Assembly: GCA_019637755.1 (NCBI GenBank)
Contig: JAHBVC010000002.1
Span: 1 to 64,000, forward strand
Direction of reading: 5' to 3'
Origin: Anaerolineales bacterium
GTDB taxonomy: Bacteria > Chloroflexota > Anaerolineae > Anaerolineales > UBA11579
Length of the DNA: 64,000 nt
Positions within the stretch are counted from its first letter, which is position 1; every line of letters starts with the position of its first letter. A program made the position numbers and the translations under genes. Shown in pieces: positions 3,491 through 57,771 of this stretch. The notes beneath the pieces were generated by a model, which saw only the letters and a list, made by a program, of their open reading frames with translations, ran no database searches and was not told the DNA's origin.

Positions 3491-7423
<3,933 letters not shown>

Positions 7424-7608: not shown

Positions 7609-7947
7609 TTCCAGGTTGGTCGGATGATCGCGGGTTCCCTTCGGGGGGCTCGAGGAAAGTCCGCACTCCATAGGGCATGGCGCCGGGGAAATCCCGGGGC
7701 GGGGAAACCTGCCGGATCGGGCCACAGAAATACACCACCGCGCAAGCGGCCAGGGTGAAATGGTGAGGTAAGAGCTCACCGGCGCGGCAGCAATGTCCGC
7801 GGCCAGGCAACCCCCGCTGGGAGCAAGGCCAAACAGAGGTGAGCAGCGGCCCGCTGCACTTGAGCCTCGGGTAGGCTGCACAGATAGATGATCATCCAAG
7901 CCCGTTCTGCGGGCTGGACAAAATGCGGCTTATAGACCGGCCTGGAA
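7609..7947 (+). ncRNA. rnpB: RNase P RNA, bacterial class A
   Basis: Catalytic RNA that matures the 5' ends of tRNAs. Diagnostic conserved blocks are present in order: GAGGAAAGTCCGCACTCC (7652-7669), CAGAAATACACC, the GAGGTAAGAGCTCACC block, CAAGGCCAAACAGAGG, AGATAGATGATC and the closing ACAAAATGCGGCTTATAGACC. The ends pair as helix P1 (TTCCAGGTTGGTC, 7609-7621, with GACCGGCCTGGAA, 7935-7947), including wobble pairs. The length of about 339 nt fits class A. The ends are set from P1 pairing and agree with the promoter position. Confidence 0.96.
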
Positions 7948-7990
7948 ACAGTGCCGCTGCACCCTCCCCGGGGCAGCGGCACTGTTTCCA
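7943..7990. terminator. 18-bp perfect hairpin after the RNase P RNA
   Basis: TGGAAACAGTGCCGCTGC (7943-7960) and its exact reverse complement (7973-7990) flank a 12-nt loop, lying between the convergent rnpB and ptsH genes. It lacks a clean T-run on either strand. Its left arm overlaps the 3' strand of P1 of the RNase P RNA, so the two helices are mutually exclusive. It probably acts as a bidirectional terminator or 3'-end processing signal. Confidence 0.55.
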
Positions 7991-27690: not shown

Positions 27691-28378
27691 CTTCGGCGGC
27701 TTCCCCGCGGGCAAGGTGCGCTTCACGCGCCTGCCCGGCCCCTTTTTCAGCGAGCTGCTGCCGCAGATCGACAGCCTGGCCGAGCTGAAGGTGACCCTGT
27801 ACGCACTGTGGAAGCTGGAGCGCATGGAAGGCGAAGCGCGCTACCTGCAGCCGCAAGACTTCACCGAGGATGCGCTGTTCCTCTCCGGCCTGCCCGGCGG
27901 CCAAGCCGACCTGGACGCGGGGTTGGCCGCAGCCGTACAGCGTGGCACGCTGCTGCAGGCCCAGCTAGAATTAGATGGTCAGCCGCGCCAGTTTTATATG
28001 CTCAACTCGGCGCGCGGCCGGGCGCTGTACGAAGCCGTGCAAAACGGCGAGTGGCAGCCCAGCGGCGATGGGCGCTACCCGATCGAGCTGGCCCACGAGC
28101 GCCCCAACATTTTTGCGCTCTACGAACGCAACATCGGCGCCATCACCCCGATGATGGCGGATGCGCTCAAGGATGCCGAGCGTGAGTACCCCCAAGAGTG
28201 GCTGGAGGAGGCGATGCGCATCGCCGTTGAAAACAACGCCCGCTCGTGGAGCTATGTACAAGCCATCTTGCGCCGATGGCAGGAAGACGGACGCGATGAG
28301 CGACGAACTCAAGGGAATTCTGAAAAAGATCGGCGAAGCTACGTCGAAGGCGAATTCTCAGACTTCATCGAACACTAA
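27659..28378 (+). CDS. DnaD-domain primosome protein
   Basis: A 239-aa protein with an N-terminal winged-helix-like region (VRFTRLPGPFFSELLPQIDSL) and a C-terminal DnaD/DnaB_II domain (NIFALYERNIGAITPMMADALKDAEREYPQEWLEEAMRIAVENNARSWSYVQAILRRW, in part), the DNA- and helicase-loader-binding module of Firmicutes DnaD. The start is ATG 27659, inside the dnaB reading frame (32-bp overlap), because homology begins shortly after. It overlaps the loader gene at its 3' end by 83 bp. Its role in helicase loading is inferred from domain and context. Confidence 0.85.
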   Translation: MSAKPGSSHSSFGGFPAGKVRFTRLPGPFFSELLPQIDSLAELKVTLYALWKLERMEGEARYLQPQDFTEDALFLSGLPGGQADLDAGLAAAVQRGTLLQAQLELDGQPRQFYMLNSARGRALYEAVQNGEWQPSGDGRYPIELAHERPNIFALYERNIGAITPMMADALKDAEREYPQEWLEEAMRIAVENNARSWSYVQAILRRWQEDGRDERRTQGNSEKDRRSYVEGEFSDFIEH

Positions 28379-29687
28379 CCAGAACAGCCACATGCAGCCG
28401 GATACGGTTGGCGACCCCAACTGCCCCCATTGCGGCGGTCTGGGCTACGTGCGCGCTGACAAGCCGCTGGGGCACCCGGAGTTTGGCCGCACGGTCATCT
28501 GCACCTGCCGCAAGGATGAGGTGGCGCTGCAAGCCCGCCGCCGCCTGTACGCCATCAGCCGCCTGGACGAGCTCAACGAGCTCACCTTCGAGAACTTTGA
28601 GCCGCGCGGCCGCGTGGGCCTGCCCGCCCGCCAGGCCGATTCGTTGGAGCTGGCCTTCAACCAATCGCAACAGTTTGCCCAGAATATGGAAGGCTGGCTG
28701 CTCTTTGAAGGCGGCTACGGCAGCGGCAAGACCCATCTGGCGGCTGCCATCGCCAACTTCGCCGTGCAGATTGGCCTGCCCACGATCTTCATCACCGTGC
28801 CCGATTTGCTGGACAGCTTGCGCTTCACTTACGGCTCCGCCGAGGAAAGTTTCGAAGAACGTTTCGAAGAAATTCGCCAGGCACCGCTGCTGATCCTGGA
28901 TGATTTCGGTACGCAGAACGCCACGGCCTGGGCGCAGGAAAAGCTGTTCCAGATCATCAACCACCGCTACATCAACCGCCTGCCGCTGATCGTCACCACG
29001 AATTTGGCCCTCGACCAGATCGAGGGCCGCATCCGCTCGCGCCTGAGCGACCCGGAGCTGGTGACCCAGATCCGCATGCTGGCCCCTGACTTCCGCCGCC
29101 CCACCGACGACAGCGCCAACGAGCTTTCCTCGCTGCACCTGCTACGTGAGCGCAACTTTGCCAGCTTTGACCTGCGCGAGGGCGAGGGGCTGCCGGCTGC
29201 CGACAGCCGCAGCCTAAAGAAAGCCTTCGACGCGGCACGCAAGTTTGCCGAGAAGCCCAAGGGCTGGCTGGTGTTCACCGGCGGCCACGGCAGCGGCAAG
29301 ACGCACCTGGCCGCCGCCATCGCCAACTACGCCCAGGACCTGGGGCGCATGCCGCTGTTCATCATGGTGCCAGATCTGCTCGACCATCTGCGCGCTACCT
29401 TCAACCCCAACAGCCCAGTGAGCTACGACCAGCGCTTCGAAGAGATGCGCAACGCCGAACTATTGGTGCTGGACGATTTGGGCACGCAATCCGCCACCCC
29501 CTGGGCGCGCGAAAAGCTGTATCAGCTCTTCACCCACCGCTACAACGCCCAGTTGCCCACGGTGATCACCACCGCCGACCGGCTGGAGGACATGGACTCG
29601 CGCATCAGAGCGCGCATGCTGGACACGCGCCTGTGCACGATATACGCGCTGACTGCGCCGGCCTACACCGGGCGCAAGAAGCGGTAG
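28296..29687 (+). CDS. DnaC/DnaI-like helicase loader with two tandem AAA+ domains
   Basis: A 463-aa protein starting at ATG 28296. After a Ser/Thr/Asn-rich tail there is a zinc-finger-like pair, CPHC (43-46) and CTC (69-71). Two full AAA+ modules follow: Walker A GGYGSGKTH (139-147) with Walker B LLILDDFGTQ, and Walker A GGHGSGKTH (329-337) with LLVLDDLGTQ, about 190 residues apart and clearly duplicated. Usual DnaC/DnaI loaders of about 250-310 aa have one. Both modules keep their ATPase motifs. It follows dnaB and the DnaD-like gene, supporting a loader role. Confidence 0.88.
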   Translation: MSDELKGILKKIGEATSKANSQTSSNTNQNSHMQPDTVGDPNCPHCGGLGYVRADKPLGHPEFGRTVICTCRKDEVALQARRRLYAISRLDELNELTFENFEPRGRVGLPARQADSLELAFNQSQQFAQNMEGWLLFEGGYGSGKTHLAAAIANFAVQIGLPTIFITVPDLLDSLRFTYGSAEESFEERFEEIRQAPLLILDDFGTQNATAWAQEKLFQIINHRYINRLPLIVTTNLALDQIEGRIRSRLSDPELVTQIRMLAPDFRRPTDDSANELSSLHLLRERNFASFDLREGEGLPAADSRSLKKAFDAARKFAEKPKGWLVFTGGHGSGKTHLAAAIANYAQDLGRMPLFIMVPDLLDHLRATFNPNSPVSYDQRFEEMRNAELLVLDDLGTQSATPWAREKLYQLFTHRYNAQLPTVITTADRLEDMDSRIRARMLDTRLCTIYALTAPAYTGRKKR

Positions 29688-32539: not shown

Positions 32540-32568
32540 TTGACACCCGCGCATGGCTGTGTCATACT
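32540..32568 (+). promoter_or_regulatory. Promoter of a short transcript
   Basis: A perfect -35 hexamer TTGACA (32540-32545), a 17-nt spacer and CATACT (32563-32568; 4 of 6 consensus bases) would start transcription near 32575, in the gap between phoU and the response regulator gene. Confidence 0.6.
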
Positions 32569-32574
32569 CCAGTC

Positions 32575-32725
32575 AGTTCCCACCCCCGCTATCCCACTCG
32601 CGAGGAGGTGTTGCCCATGGATAGTATCCGTCTTAGCGCAGCGGCAGCACTCCTCACCATTGTGAGCTAACGCTGTCGCTGCGCAACAAAACCAAAGAGC
32701 CCGTTACCGGGCTCTTTGGCTTTTT
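32575..32725 (+). ncRNA. Candidate small RNA or micro-ORF transcript with own terminator
   Basis: A self-contained unit of about 150 nt. It has the promoter above, a strong Shine-Dalgarno (GAGGAGGTG, 32602-32610) and an ATG at 32617 opening a 17-residue frame (MDSIRLSAAAALLTIVS, stop at 32668-32670). A perfect terminator closes it (CCAAAGAGCCCG-TTAC-CGGGCTCTTTGG with a T5 run, 32692-32725). The micro-ORF overlaps a strong stem: GCGCAGCGGCAGC (32636-32648) pairs with GCTGTCGCTGCGC (32672-32684), enclosing a second hairpin CTCAC-CATT-GTGAG. It could be a regulatory RNA, a peptide gene or both. No known family was recognised. Confidence 0.5.
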
Positions 32726-38971: not shown

Positions 38972-38974
38972 AAT

Positions 38975-39046
38975 GCCCCCACGGGGATTCGAACCCCGGT
39001 TTTAGCCTTGAAAGGGCCACGTCCTAGGCCTCTAGACGATGGGGGC
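38975..39046 (-). tRNA. tRNA-Glu (anticodon TTC)
   Basis: Complete cloverleaf: acceptor stem GCCCCCA/TGGGGGC, D arm GTCT...AGGAC, anticodon loop CTTTCAA giving anticodon TTC, and T arm CGGGGTTCGAATCCCCG. The 3' CCA is not encoded. The 72-nt length is normal for tRNA-Glu. Confidence 0.96.
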
Positions 39047-57258: not shown

Positions 57259-57346
57259 GGAGGGATGGCCGAGTGGTTTAAGGCGGCGGTCTTGAAAACC
57301 GTTGTAGGTCTACGACTTACCGGGGGTTCGAATCCCTCTCCCTCCG
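57259..57346 (+). tRNA. tRNA-Ser (anticodon TGA)
   Basis: 88 nt with the long variable arm of class II tRNAs. Acceptor stem GGAGGGA/TCCCTCC, anticodon loop TCTTGAAAA giving TGA, T arm GGGGGTTCGAATCCCTC. CCA is not encoded. Confidence 0.96.
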
Positions 57347-57359
57347 CTGAACAGATACT

Positions 57360-57450
57360 GGGGAGGTCGCATAGCCCGGTCTAGTGCGCCCGCCTGCTAA
57401 GTGGGTTCCGGAGGTTTCTCCGGACGAGGGTTCAAATCCCTCCCTCCCCG
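57360..57450 (+). tRNA. tRNA-Ser (anticodon GCT)
   Basis: 91-nt class II tRNA. Acceptor stem GGGGAGG/CCTCCCC, anticodon loop CTGCTAA giving GCT, long variable arm (GTTCCGGAGGTTTCTCCGGAC) and T arm GAGGGTTCAAATCCCTC. It lies 13 nt after the other tRNA-Ser, so the two are probably co-transcribed. Confidence 0.96.
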
Positions 57451-57452
57451 CC

Positions 57453-57480
57453 TTGAATTGTGCTGCAGTAGCGGTACAAT
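57453..57480 (+). promoter_or_regulatory. Promoter candidate before the structured RNA region
   Basis: TTGAAT (57453-57458), a 16-nt spacer and TACAAT (57475-57480), directly after tRNA-Ser(GCT), would start transcription near 57487. Confidence 0.5.
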
Positions 57481-57486
57481 TCCCCG

Positions 57487-57697
57487 CCGAGTCAGGATGG
57501 CATCTGAGCCTGACTTAACAACAGATGTGAGGACTAGCTCCTCGTCTACTCGTCATACCGCAGACGCGTAGAAAGCTGAGGTCTAAGTCACCTCGCTGCC
57601 AGTACTGCCGCCACGCGGCGTTCGCTGCCCTTGCGAACGCCAAAGTGTGAGGCGGTTGTTGGTGAATTACTAGCTGAGGCTATAACCGCCTCACACA
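57487..57697 (+). ncRNA. Candidate structured RNA between tRNA-Ser and tRNA-Arg
   Basis: About 210 nt without a credible gene but with consecutive stems on the plus strand. They are GTCAGG/CCTGAC near its start, GAGGA-CTAGC-TCCTC, a CTACTCG/CGCGTAG stem with one mismatch, GAGGT/ACCTC, a perfect 9-bp GGCGTTCGC/GCGAACGCC (about 57618-57642) and a perfect 13-bp GTGTGAGGCGGTT/AACCGCCTCACAC (57645-57657 with 57683-57695) just before tRNA-Arg. A promoter precedes it. I do not find the conserved blocks of tmRNA, SRP RNA or RNase P RNA. It may be a lineage-specific RNA or a long tRNA-processing spacer. Confidence 0.45.
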
Positions 57698-57698
57698 A

Positions 57699-57771
57699 GC
57701 TCTCGTAGCTCAGTGGATAGAGCACTTGCTTGCGGAGCAAGGGGTCGCGTGTTCGAGTCGCGCCGAGAGCG
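57699..57771 (+). tRNA. tRNA-Arg (anticodon GCG)
   Basis: 73 nt: acceptor stem GCTCTCG/CGAGAGC, D arm GCTC...GAGC, anticodon arm CTTGC-TTGCGGA-GCAAG, T arm GCGTG/CGCGC with TTCGAGT loop. The anticodon is GCG, reading CGC and CGU. Most bacteria use ACG (deaminated to ICG) for these codons, so this is an uncommon form. CCA is not encoded. Confidence 0.93.

Follow-up and report, generated by a model that had tools for sequence, protein, structure and literature searches.

The window analysed here is a stretch of 64 kb (64,000 nucleotides) belonging to a 2.26-Mb genome assembled in two contigs, and the locus of interest lies between phoU on one side and a convergent response regulator gene on the other, as Pfam matches confirm. 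The original prediction had placed a complete miniature transcription unit here, with a promoter, a strong ribosome site, a 17-codon frame, a 13-bp stem and a terminator, and all of these parts sit where it put them, within 32540-32725. Beyond it, the Shine-Dalgarno (SD) segment was found to have two complementary partners: an element upstream of it, at 32588-32595, and the 5′ arm of the stem (32643-32655). The features of the unit are as follows:

32540-32568, + strand: sigma-70-type promoter with TTGACA (32540-32545), a 17-nt spacer and CATACT (32563-32568), and an extended -10 (TG)
32588-32595, + strand: W, GCTATCCC, the 5′ element that pairs with the SD segment (helix W:X)
32602-32615, + strand: X, GAGGAGGTGTTGCC, the SD segment, including the strong ribosome site GAGGAGGTG (32602-32610)
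32617-32670, + strand: micro-ORF of 17 codons, from ATG at 32617 to TAA at 32668-32670, encoding MDSIRLSAAAALLTIVS
32623-32625, + strand: AGT serine codon, 21 nt 5′ of the Y anchor (32644)
32636-32655, + strand: Y, inside the micro-ORF, able to pair with Z or X; its stem 5′ arm GCGCAGCGGCAGC (32636-32648) overlaps a second anti-SD, GGCAGCACTCCTC (32643-32655)
32653-32666, + strand: P3, the apical hairpin CTCAC-CATT-GTGAG, immediately 5′ of the stop codon
32672-32684, + strand: Z, the stem 3′ arm GCTGTCGCTGCGC, beginning directly after the stop codon and pairing with 32636-32648 (13 bp, 92% complementary, one G-T)
32692-32725, + strand: terminator-like hairpin (32692-32719) followed by a T run

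Transcription would be expected to start near 32575, and the terminator-like hairpin is probably shared, on the opposite strand, with the convergent response regulator gene. X is complementary to W, to Y and, across AGGAGGTG, to the 3′ tail of the 16S rRNA of the same genome. Among 191 distinct members, the order of elements is constant: near-consensus promoter, W, X, micro-ORF with Y, stop codon, Z and terminator hairpin. Elsewhere in the window, a single long ORF (28161-29687, + strand) contains two ATPase-like halves that follow one another, resemble each other and look DnaC-like to the eye, and a class A RNase P RNA and four tRNA genes are found at 7612-7948 (+ strand), 38974-39046 (- strand) and 57259-57771 (+ strand).

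Taken alone, neither promoter nor terminator matches exceed chance within 4 kb (2 promoters found vs 2.0 in shuffles; 4 terminators vs 3.0); the folding of the unit does (z -7.9; 0 of 200 shuffles equally good), and conservation across genomes rules out a chance origin. BLAST recovered the unit from 10 of 61 genomes at E<=2e-12, its own genome counted, and weaker pieces from other genera of the same family. A covariance search in related genomes had been suggested together with the original prediction, and a model built from 23 sequences (R1) matches 277 of 400 genomes of the order, including 165 of the 210 of good quality, and 112 of 130 genera; the remaining 123 genomes without a match are in part incomplete, and many of the genomes surveyed are fragmented. 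At the class level, matches occur in 215 of 396 genomes (128 of 223 genera), and at the phylum level in 47 of 400, all except three from the same class. Those three have E values between 3.5e-4 and 4.6e-4 and possess the SD, the ORF and the hairpins. Most of the genomes listed contain a single match, and the extra matches in the fetched loci mostly represent the palindromic hairpin read backwards. In a second class, a further model (R2) matches 45 of 150 genomes at E<=0.01, where the scores of genus-mates are partly circular because R2 includes the second-class loci L124 and L126, and the matches extend to other families (8.8e-6, 9.9e-5). By parser and reading, 15 of 20 second-class loci, six of them from one genus, show the SD, the micro-ORF and the hairpins; both their Y arm and their peptides, for example MNDSKRMGVAAGEAR, are different.

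Outside the phylum, the distribution was covered by a narrow pattern scan of genomes, which fits only the U variant of X and is therefore no test of absence elsewhere. It returned 20 stretches, 13 of which coincide with loci already in the set, and on this ground the class is taken to be Anaerolineae; 19 are titled Anaerolineales, Anaerolineae, Anaerolineaceae or Chloroflexi and one Flavobacteriaceae. The last of these is a complete member (L031, at about 4471-4591 of CP070731.1, a record titled Flavobacteriaceae bacterium) whose upstream gene falls into the same cluster as its counterpart at the Anaerolineales locus L015, and the label of this record is probably wrong, or the assembly mixed. 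A mobile or repeat element was considered and rejected, with one copy in the own genome and no match in phages and plasmids; of two scans of viral contigs, one gave 0 hits and the other 2 hits that on reading lacked the anatomy. No Rfam 15 family reaches its gathering threshold at the locus or on the RNA in 16 further loci. The 6S RNA model RF00013 finds no match in the own genome, which carries little weight, since the same model gives a match in only 5 of 14 control genomes. No published account of the RNA was found in the available parts of the literature searched, including PMC2864571, PMC11109978 and PMC6429828. It is very likely that the RNA gene is real.

The counts given below derive from 195 matching loci, mostly picked among the best-scoring. 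Five weak BLAST hits (L018-L022) looked like chance matches when read and were excluded, as were L216, where no X was found, and three duplicates. In L072, L104, L138, L209 and L123 the Y anchor set by the script was judged wrong by eye; these five remain in the 191-member frame count, and together with L128, which has an early stop, they are excluded from the folding, codon, AGT-lack and representative-set counts and, along with others, from the codon-place and terminator/antisense counts. L124-L126 are also absent from the folding and terminator counts, L121, L122 and L124-L126 from the codon-place count, and members with >=20 nt between stop and Z from the terminator count.

The helices show distinct patterns of change. 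In an RNAalifold analysis of 23 sequences, a W element of the form GCYAYYCC pairs with the SD segment with all 8 pairs intact in 23 of 23 and changes that are one-sided only (C/U), Y:Z covaries, and all three helices together hold 47 both-side cells vs 19.1 after shuffling, a control which, like the other shuffle controls here, is inflated by sequence relatedness. In a model-based alignment of 96 class-wide members, both-side changes occur at each of the 14 Y:Z pairs and each of the 5 P3 pairs, giving 363 both-side cells for Y:Z with P3 vs 121.0 shuffled. The X:Y helix was never in any model (A3 had been fitted to a structure comprising W:X, Y:Z and P3), and 95.5% of its cells are paired across five alignable pairs, with 28 both-side cells vs 7.3 shuffled. 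One pair, appearing as A-U, G-C or U-A with G-U forms, contributes 26 of these 28 cells; in the 191 members it is A-U in 117, G-U in 26, G-C in 18, U-G in 12, U-A in 10 and unpaired in 8, and the pattern persists in 109 representatives with <75% ungapped identity. X:Y and Y:Z are mutually exclusive through their common arm, and both covary: Y tracks X as well as Z, and two exclusive helices are therefore under selection. No conserved junction of the kind expected for a riboswitch-type aptamer was seen outside the pairings described. Between the end of the stop codon and Z, most members have 0-9 nt. At L107, L112 and L114, an extra hairpin-capable insert separates stop and Z, and the distance is 31-34 nt.

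The order in which these pairings may form was explored by running RNAfold on growing prefixes of 183 members, which yields equilibrium folds, not kinetics. In prefixes that end before Y, the partner of X is W (P>0.5) in 170 of 183; once Y is made and Z is still absent, X is paired to Y in all 183 and to W in 0; at full length, Y:Z is predicted in 182 of 183, and the SD core is again on W in 162. The SD is predicted to have a mean accessibility of 0.04 in prefixes lacking Z and of 0.13 in the full-length RNA, and the anti-SD part of Y is predicted to lie mostly unpaired between the stem and P3 in the Y:Z state. The folds thus predict a relay from W:X to X:Y and then to Y:Z plus W:X, which would conceal the ribosome site at each stage.

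The micro-ORF is maintained as a frame. Of 191 members, 188 start with ATG, and in 181 the distance from ATG to Y is divisible by three. The ten exceptions comprise four anchoring errors (L104, L123, L138 and L209), two second-class members (L124 and L125), the early stop of L128 (genome 77% complete, one contig), perhaps a sequencing error, and real frame changes in L121, L122 and L204, where Y is read in another frame and an open frame of similar extent ends near Z. The encoded peptides have 14-22 residues. In the largest length class (104 members), entropy between start and Y is 1.14, 1.39 and 1.24 bits at codon positions 1, 2 and 3, with similar values in two other length classes; no third-position excess is seen, position 2 varying no less than position 3. 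Taken with the maintained frame, the lack of a third-position excess indicates that translation is conserved and the peptide is not. The original prediction had offered two interpretations, a regulatory RNA with a translated switch or a small membrane-active peptide, and had asked whether stem or peptide is the conserved part; it was to be refuted if neither was conserved in close relatives, which is not what is observed. The stem, the alternative pairing, the frame and the AGU codons are conserved and the peptide is not, so that only the former interpretation is supported, with stem and frame conserved class-wide and an alternative pairing that conceals the ribosome site. Against the latter speak free variation outside the RNA-constrained arm with position 2 varying at least as much as position 3, the frame changes around Y, and the unrelated peptides of the second class.

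A strong codon bias accompanies the frame. Between start and Y, AGT accounts for 289 of 1160 codons (249 per 1000), a 53-fold enrichment over the flanking ORFs of 90 loci, where it makes up 4.7 per 1000 codons and 9% of serine codons; the alternative serine codons in this stretch are AGC (33) and TCN (20), and TGT is enriched 13-fold. Of 293 AGT occurrences, 289 are in frame and 4 out of frame, and 164 distinct segments contain 256 AGT, whereas their shuffles average 22 and reach at most 38. AGT is absent from 12 of 185 members. At a fixed place 21 nt 5′ of the Y anchor, which as set in the scripts lies 12 nt before the stem base, 144 of 180 members have AGT or AGC. The leading edge of a ribosome reaches about 12-13 nt past the first base of the A-site codon, and a ribosome decoding the codon at the fixed place would therefore touch the stem. 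AGU may be favoured because UCN or AGC would pair with X or the stem arm, not for slowness. According to the available part of their paper, Elf and Ehrenberg argued that attenuators are sharpened by rare codons and by a particular synonym (PMC1183508).

The borders of the unit were compared among members. A promoter-like site matching at least 9 of 12 positions lies upstream in 171 of 190 members, vs 164 of 1900 shuffles, with an exact TTGACA in 149 of 190. A hairpin of at least 9 pairs follows Z at a median distance of 3 nt in 177 of 179 members vs 26 of 179 shuffles, and at least 4 T within 9 nt after the hairpin are found in 114 of 179 vs 26 of 179 for background. By mechanical ORF calls, the downstream ORF is convergent in 61 of 93 loci. 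Neighbouring genes form clusters of up to 20 loci, the genes differ among clusters, and PhoU, response regulator, phosphofructokinase, rhodanese, AIR synthase-like, class-V aminotransferase and QueA proteins share no common theme. Because the neighbours vary and most downstream genes are convergent, no operon depends on the RNA.

In the trp and his attenuators, a short leader ORF is combined with the exclusive pairings 1:2, 2:3 and 3:4, which correspond here to W:X, X:Y and Y:Z. The present RNA resembles ribosome-mediated attenuators in its short leader ORF with a ribosome site, its enriched regulatory codons and its exclusive stems; unlike in them, the SD takes the place of region 2, the terminator is a hairpin of its own at a median of 3 nt after Z and not the Y:Z stem, and no regulated operon lies downstream. 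Since neither a regulated operon nor a terminator acting as one of the alternative stems was found, the RNA is not filed as an attenuator. Regulatory codons of attenuators are rare in bulk mRNA, according to the available text of PMC1183508. For a trans-acting attenuator product, the nearest precedent is rnTrpL/peTrpL of Sinorhizobium meliloti, which the accessible portion of PMC7298713 describes as a terminated attenuator-type transcript, a small RNA with a 14-codon ORF, of which RNA and peptide both act in trans; in that description rnTrpL precedes trpE(G) and its ORF is leaderless, whereas the present RNA has no operon and a very strong, masked SD. The nearest precedent for sequential SD masking is AapA3 of Helicobacter pylori, where, in the part of PMC6733600 available, successive hairpins hide the SD (through an anti-SD in the 5′ UTR and then one within the ORF) before a more stable final fold. 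Unlike that AapA3 account, no antisense antitoxin and no conserved toxin peptide are seen here, and the final fold is a local Y:Z hairpin instead of a 5′-3′ interaction. Among published motifs, the Downstream-peptide motif/yfr6 likewise combines a structured RNA with a short ORF whose indels occur in multiples of three (PMC2864571, as far as available); in that motif the structured part serves as 5′ UTR to the ORF, whereas here structure and ORF overlap, and no Rfam match is found. The fthC motif has an SD-like region and AUG between two stems, a stop codon in the second and a third hairpin that is the terminator, and the ilvB-II motif a codon-enriched uORF with alternative stems; in the available part of their description (PMC11109978), both are fixed before one gene in Streptococcus or Corynebacterium, whereas no fixed gene follows the RNA here.

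Several rival explanations were weighed. That the unit is a cis-acting leader for adjoining genes, or merely a decorated bidirectional terminator, has largely been refuted already and appears highly improbable: hairpins shared with a convergent gene are common and at 25 of 93 loci an ORF in the same direction lies within 150 nt, but the prevalence of convergent downstream ORFs and the lack of a theme among neighbours do not fit a leader, and a terminator has no need of a conserved SD, ORF and codon bias. It is unlikely, too, that the unit is a micro-mRNA whose product is the 14-22-residue peptide, with co-transcriptional SD masking as in type I toxin mRNAs. The conserved start and frame, an N-terminal part that is serine-rich in both classes, and the precedent of AapA3, whose SD is hidden by a 5′ UTR element and then by an in-ORF element (available part of PMC6733600), would suit such a role. 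Sequential SD masking during transcription, one criterion of type I systems, is indeed found in silico in the prefix folds of 183 members; a conserved hydrophobic toxin peptide, another, is not found, the codon positions carrying no peptide-level signature, which also led us to reject a conserved-peptide reading. L121, L122 and L204 place Y in other frames, and the second-class peptides are unrelated. A toxin-antitoxin arrangement was likewise rejected, antisense promoters being not in excess (4 of 179 vs 4 of 537 shuffles, by a consensus scan that can miss unusual promoters), and for this reason the RNA is not filed as a type I system.

A base-pairing small RNA, in which the unpaired CCUCC-type stretch of Y, or Z, would bind mRNAs in trans and the ORF would merely tune exposure or decay, seems about as unlikely as the micro-mRNA. 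The stand-alone unit with its strong promoter and terminator, the mostly unpaired anti-SD part of Y predicted in the Y:Z state, and the precedent of rnTrpL as an attenuator-derived sRNA active in trans (available part of PMC7298713) speak for it; yet the pairing with X and Z already accounts for Y, and the codon bias is left unexplained. Set against these rivals, and built on parts, covariation, frame, codon bias, a terminator and the absence of a common operon that are all observed in silico, the reading we prefer is an ‘orphan attenuator’, a stand-alone translation-sensing RNA gene resembling the leader of an attenuated operon without the operon, to which, with the mechanism proposed below, we give about an even chance. 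That translation is the input of the RNA is fairly likely, given a frame kept without its peptide, a rare codon at a fixed distance from the stem, and an arm that covaries with two partners.

As an orphan attenuator, the gene would be transcribed from its strong promoter into an RNA of roughly 150 nt ending at its own terminator. During transcription, W would bind the SD segment X, the emerging Y would then capture X from W, and Z would in turn capture Y, allowing X to return to W. The ribosome site would be open mainly during these exchanges, or when a 30S subunit outcompetes W, for which its anti-SD, matching X well, may equip it. A ribosome that has loaded would meet rare serine codons, AGU, some 12 nt short of the Y:Z stem: waiting on AGU, it would cover X and face the intact stem, whereas running on, it would open the stem and halt just before Z. 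AGU decoding would be the signal, and the resulting fold, by setting how stable the released RNA is or which of its arms are exposed, might report AGU decoding speed or ribosome availability, with the RNA presumably acting in trans.

Absent from Rfam 15, the RNA gene is widespread and normally single-copy in a large bacterial class that is for the most part uncultured. More tentatively, such genes may be deep-rooted, free-standing translation sensors, in which a released RNA records in its fold the speed of AGU decoding or the availability of free 30S subunits and serves as a global trans regulator, a possibility that we hold to be somewhat short of even. Trans action of the RNA would mean that a sensor working by attenuation can stand on its own.
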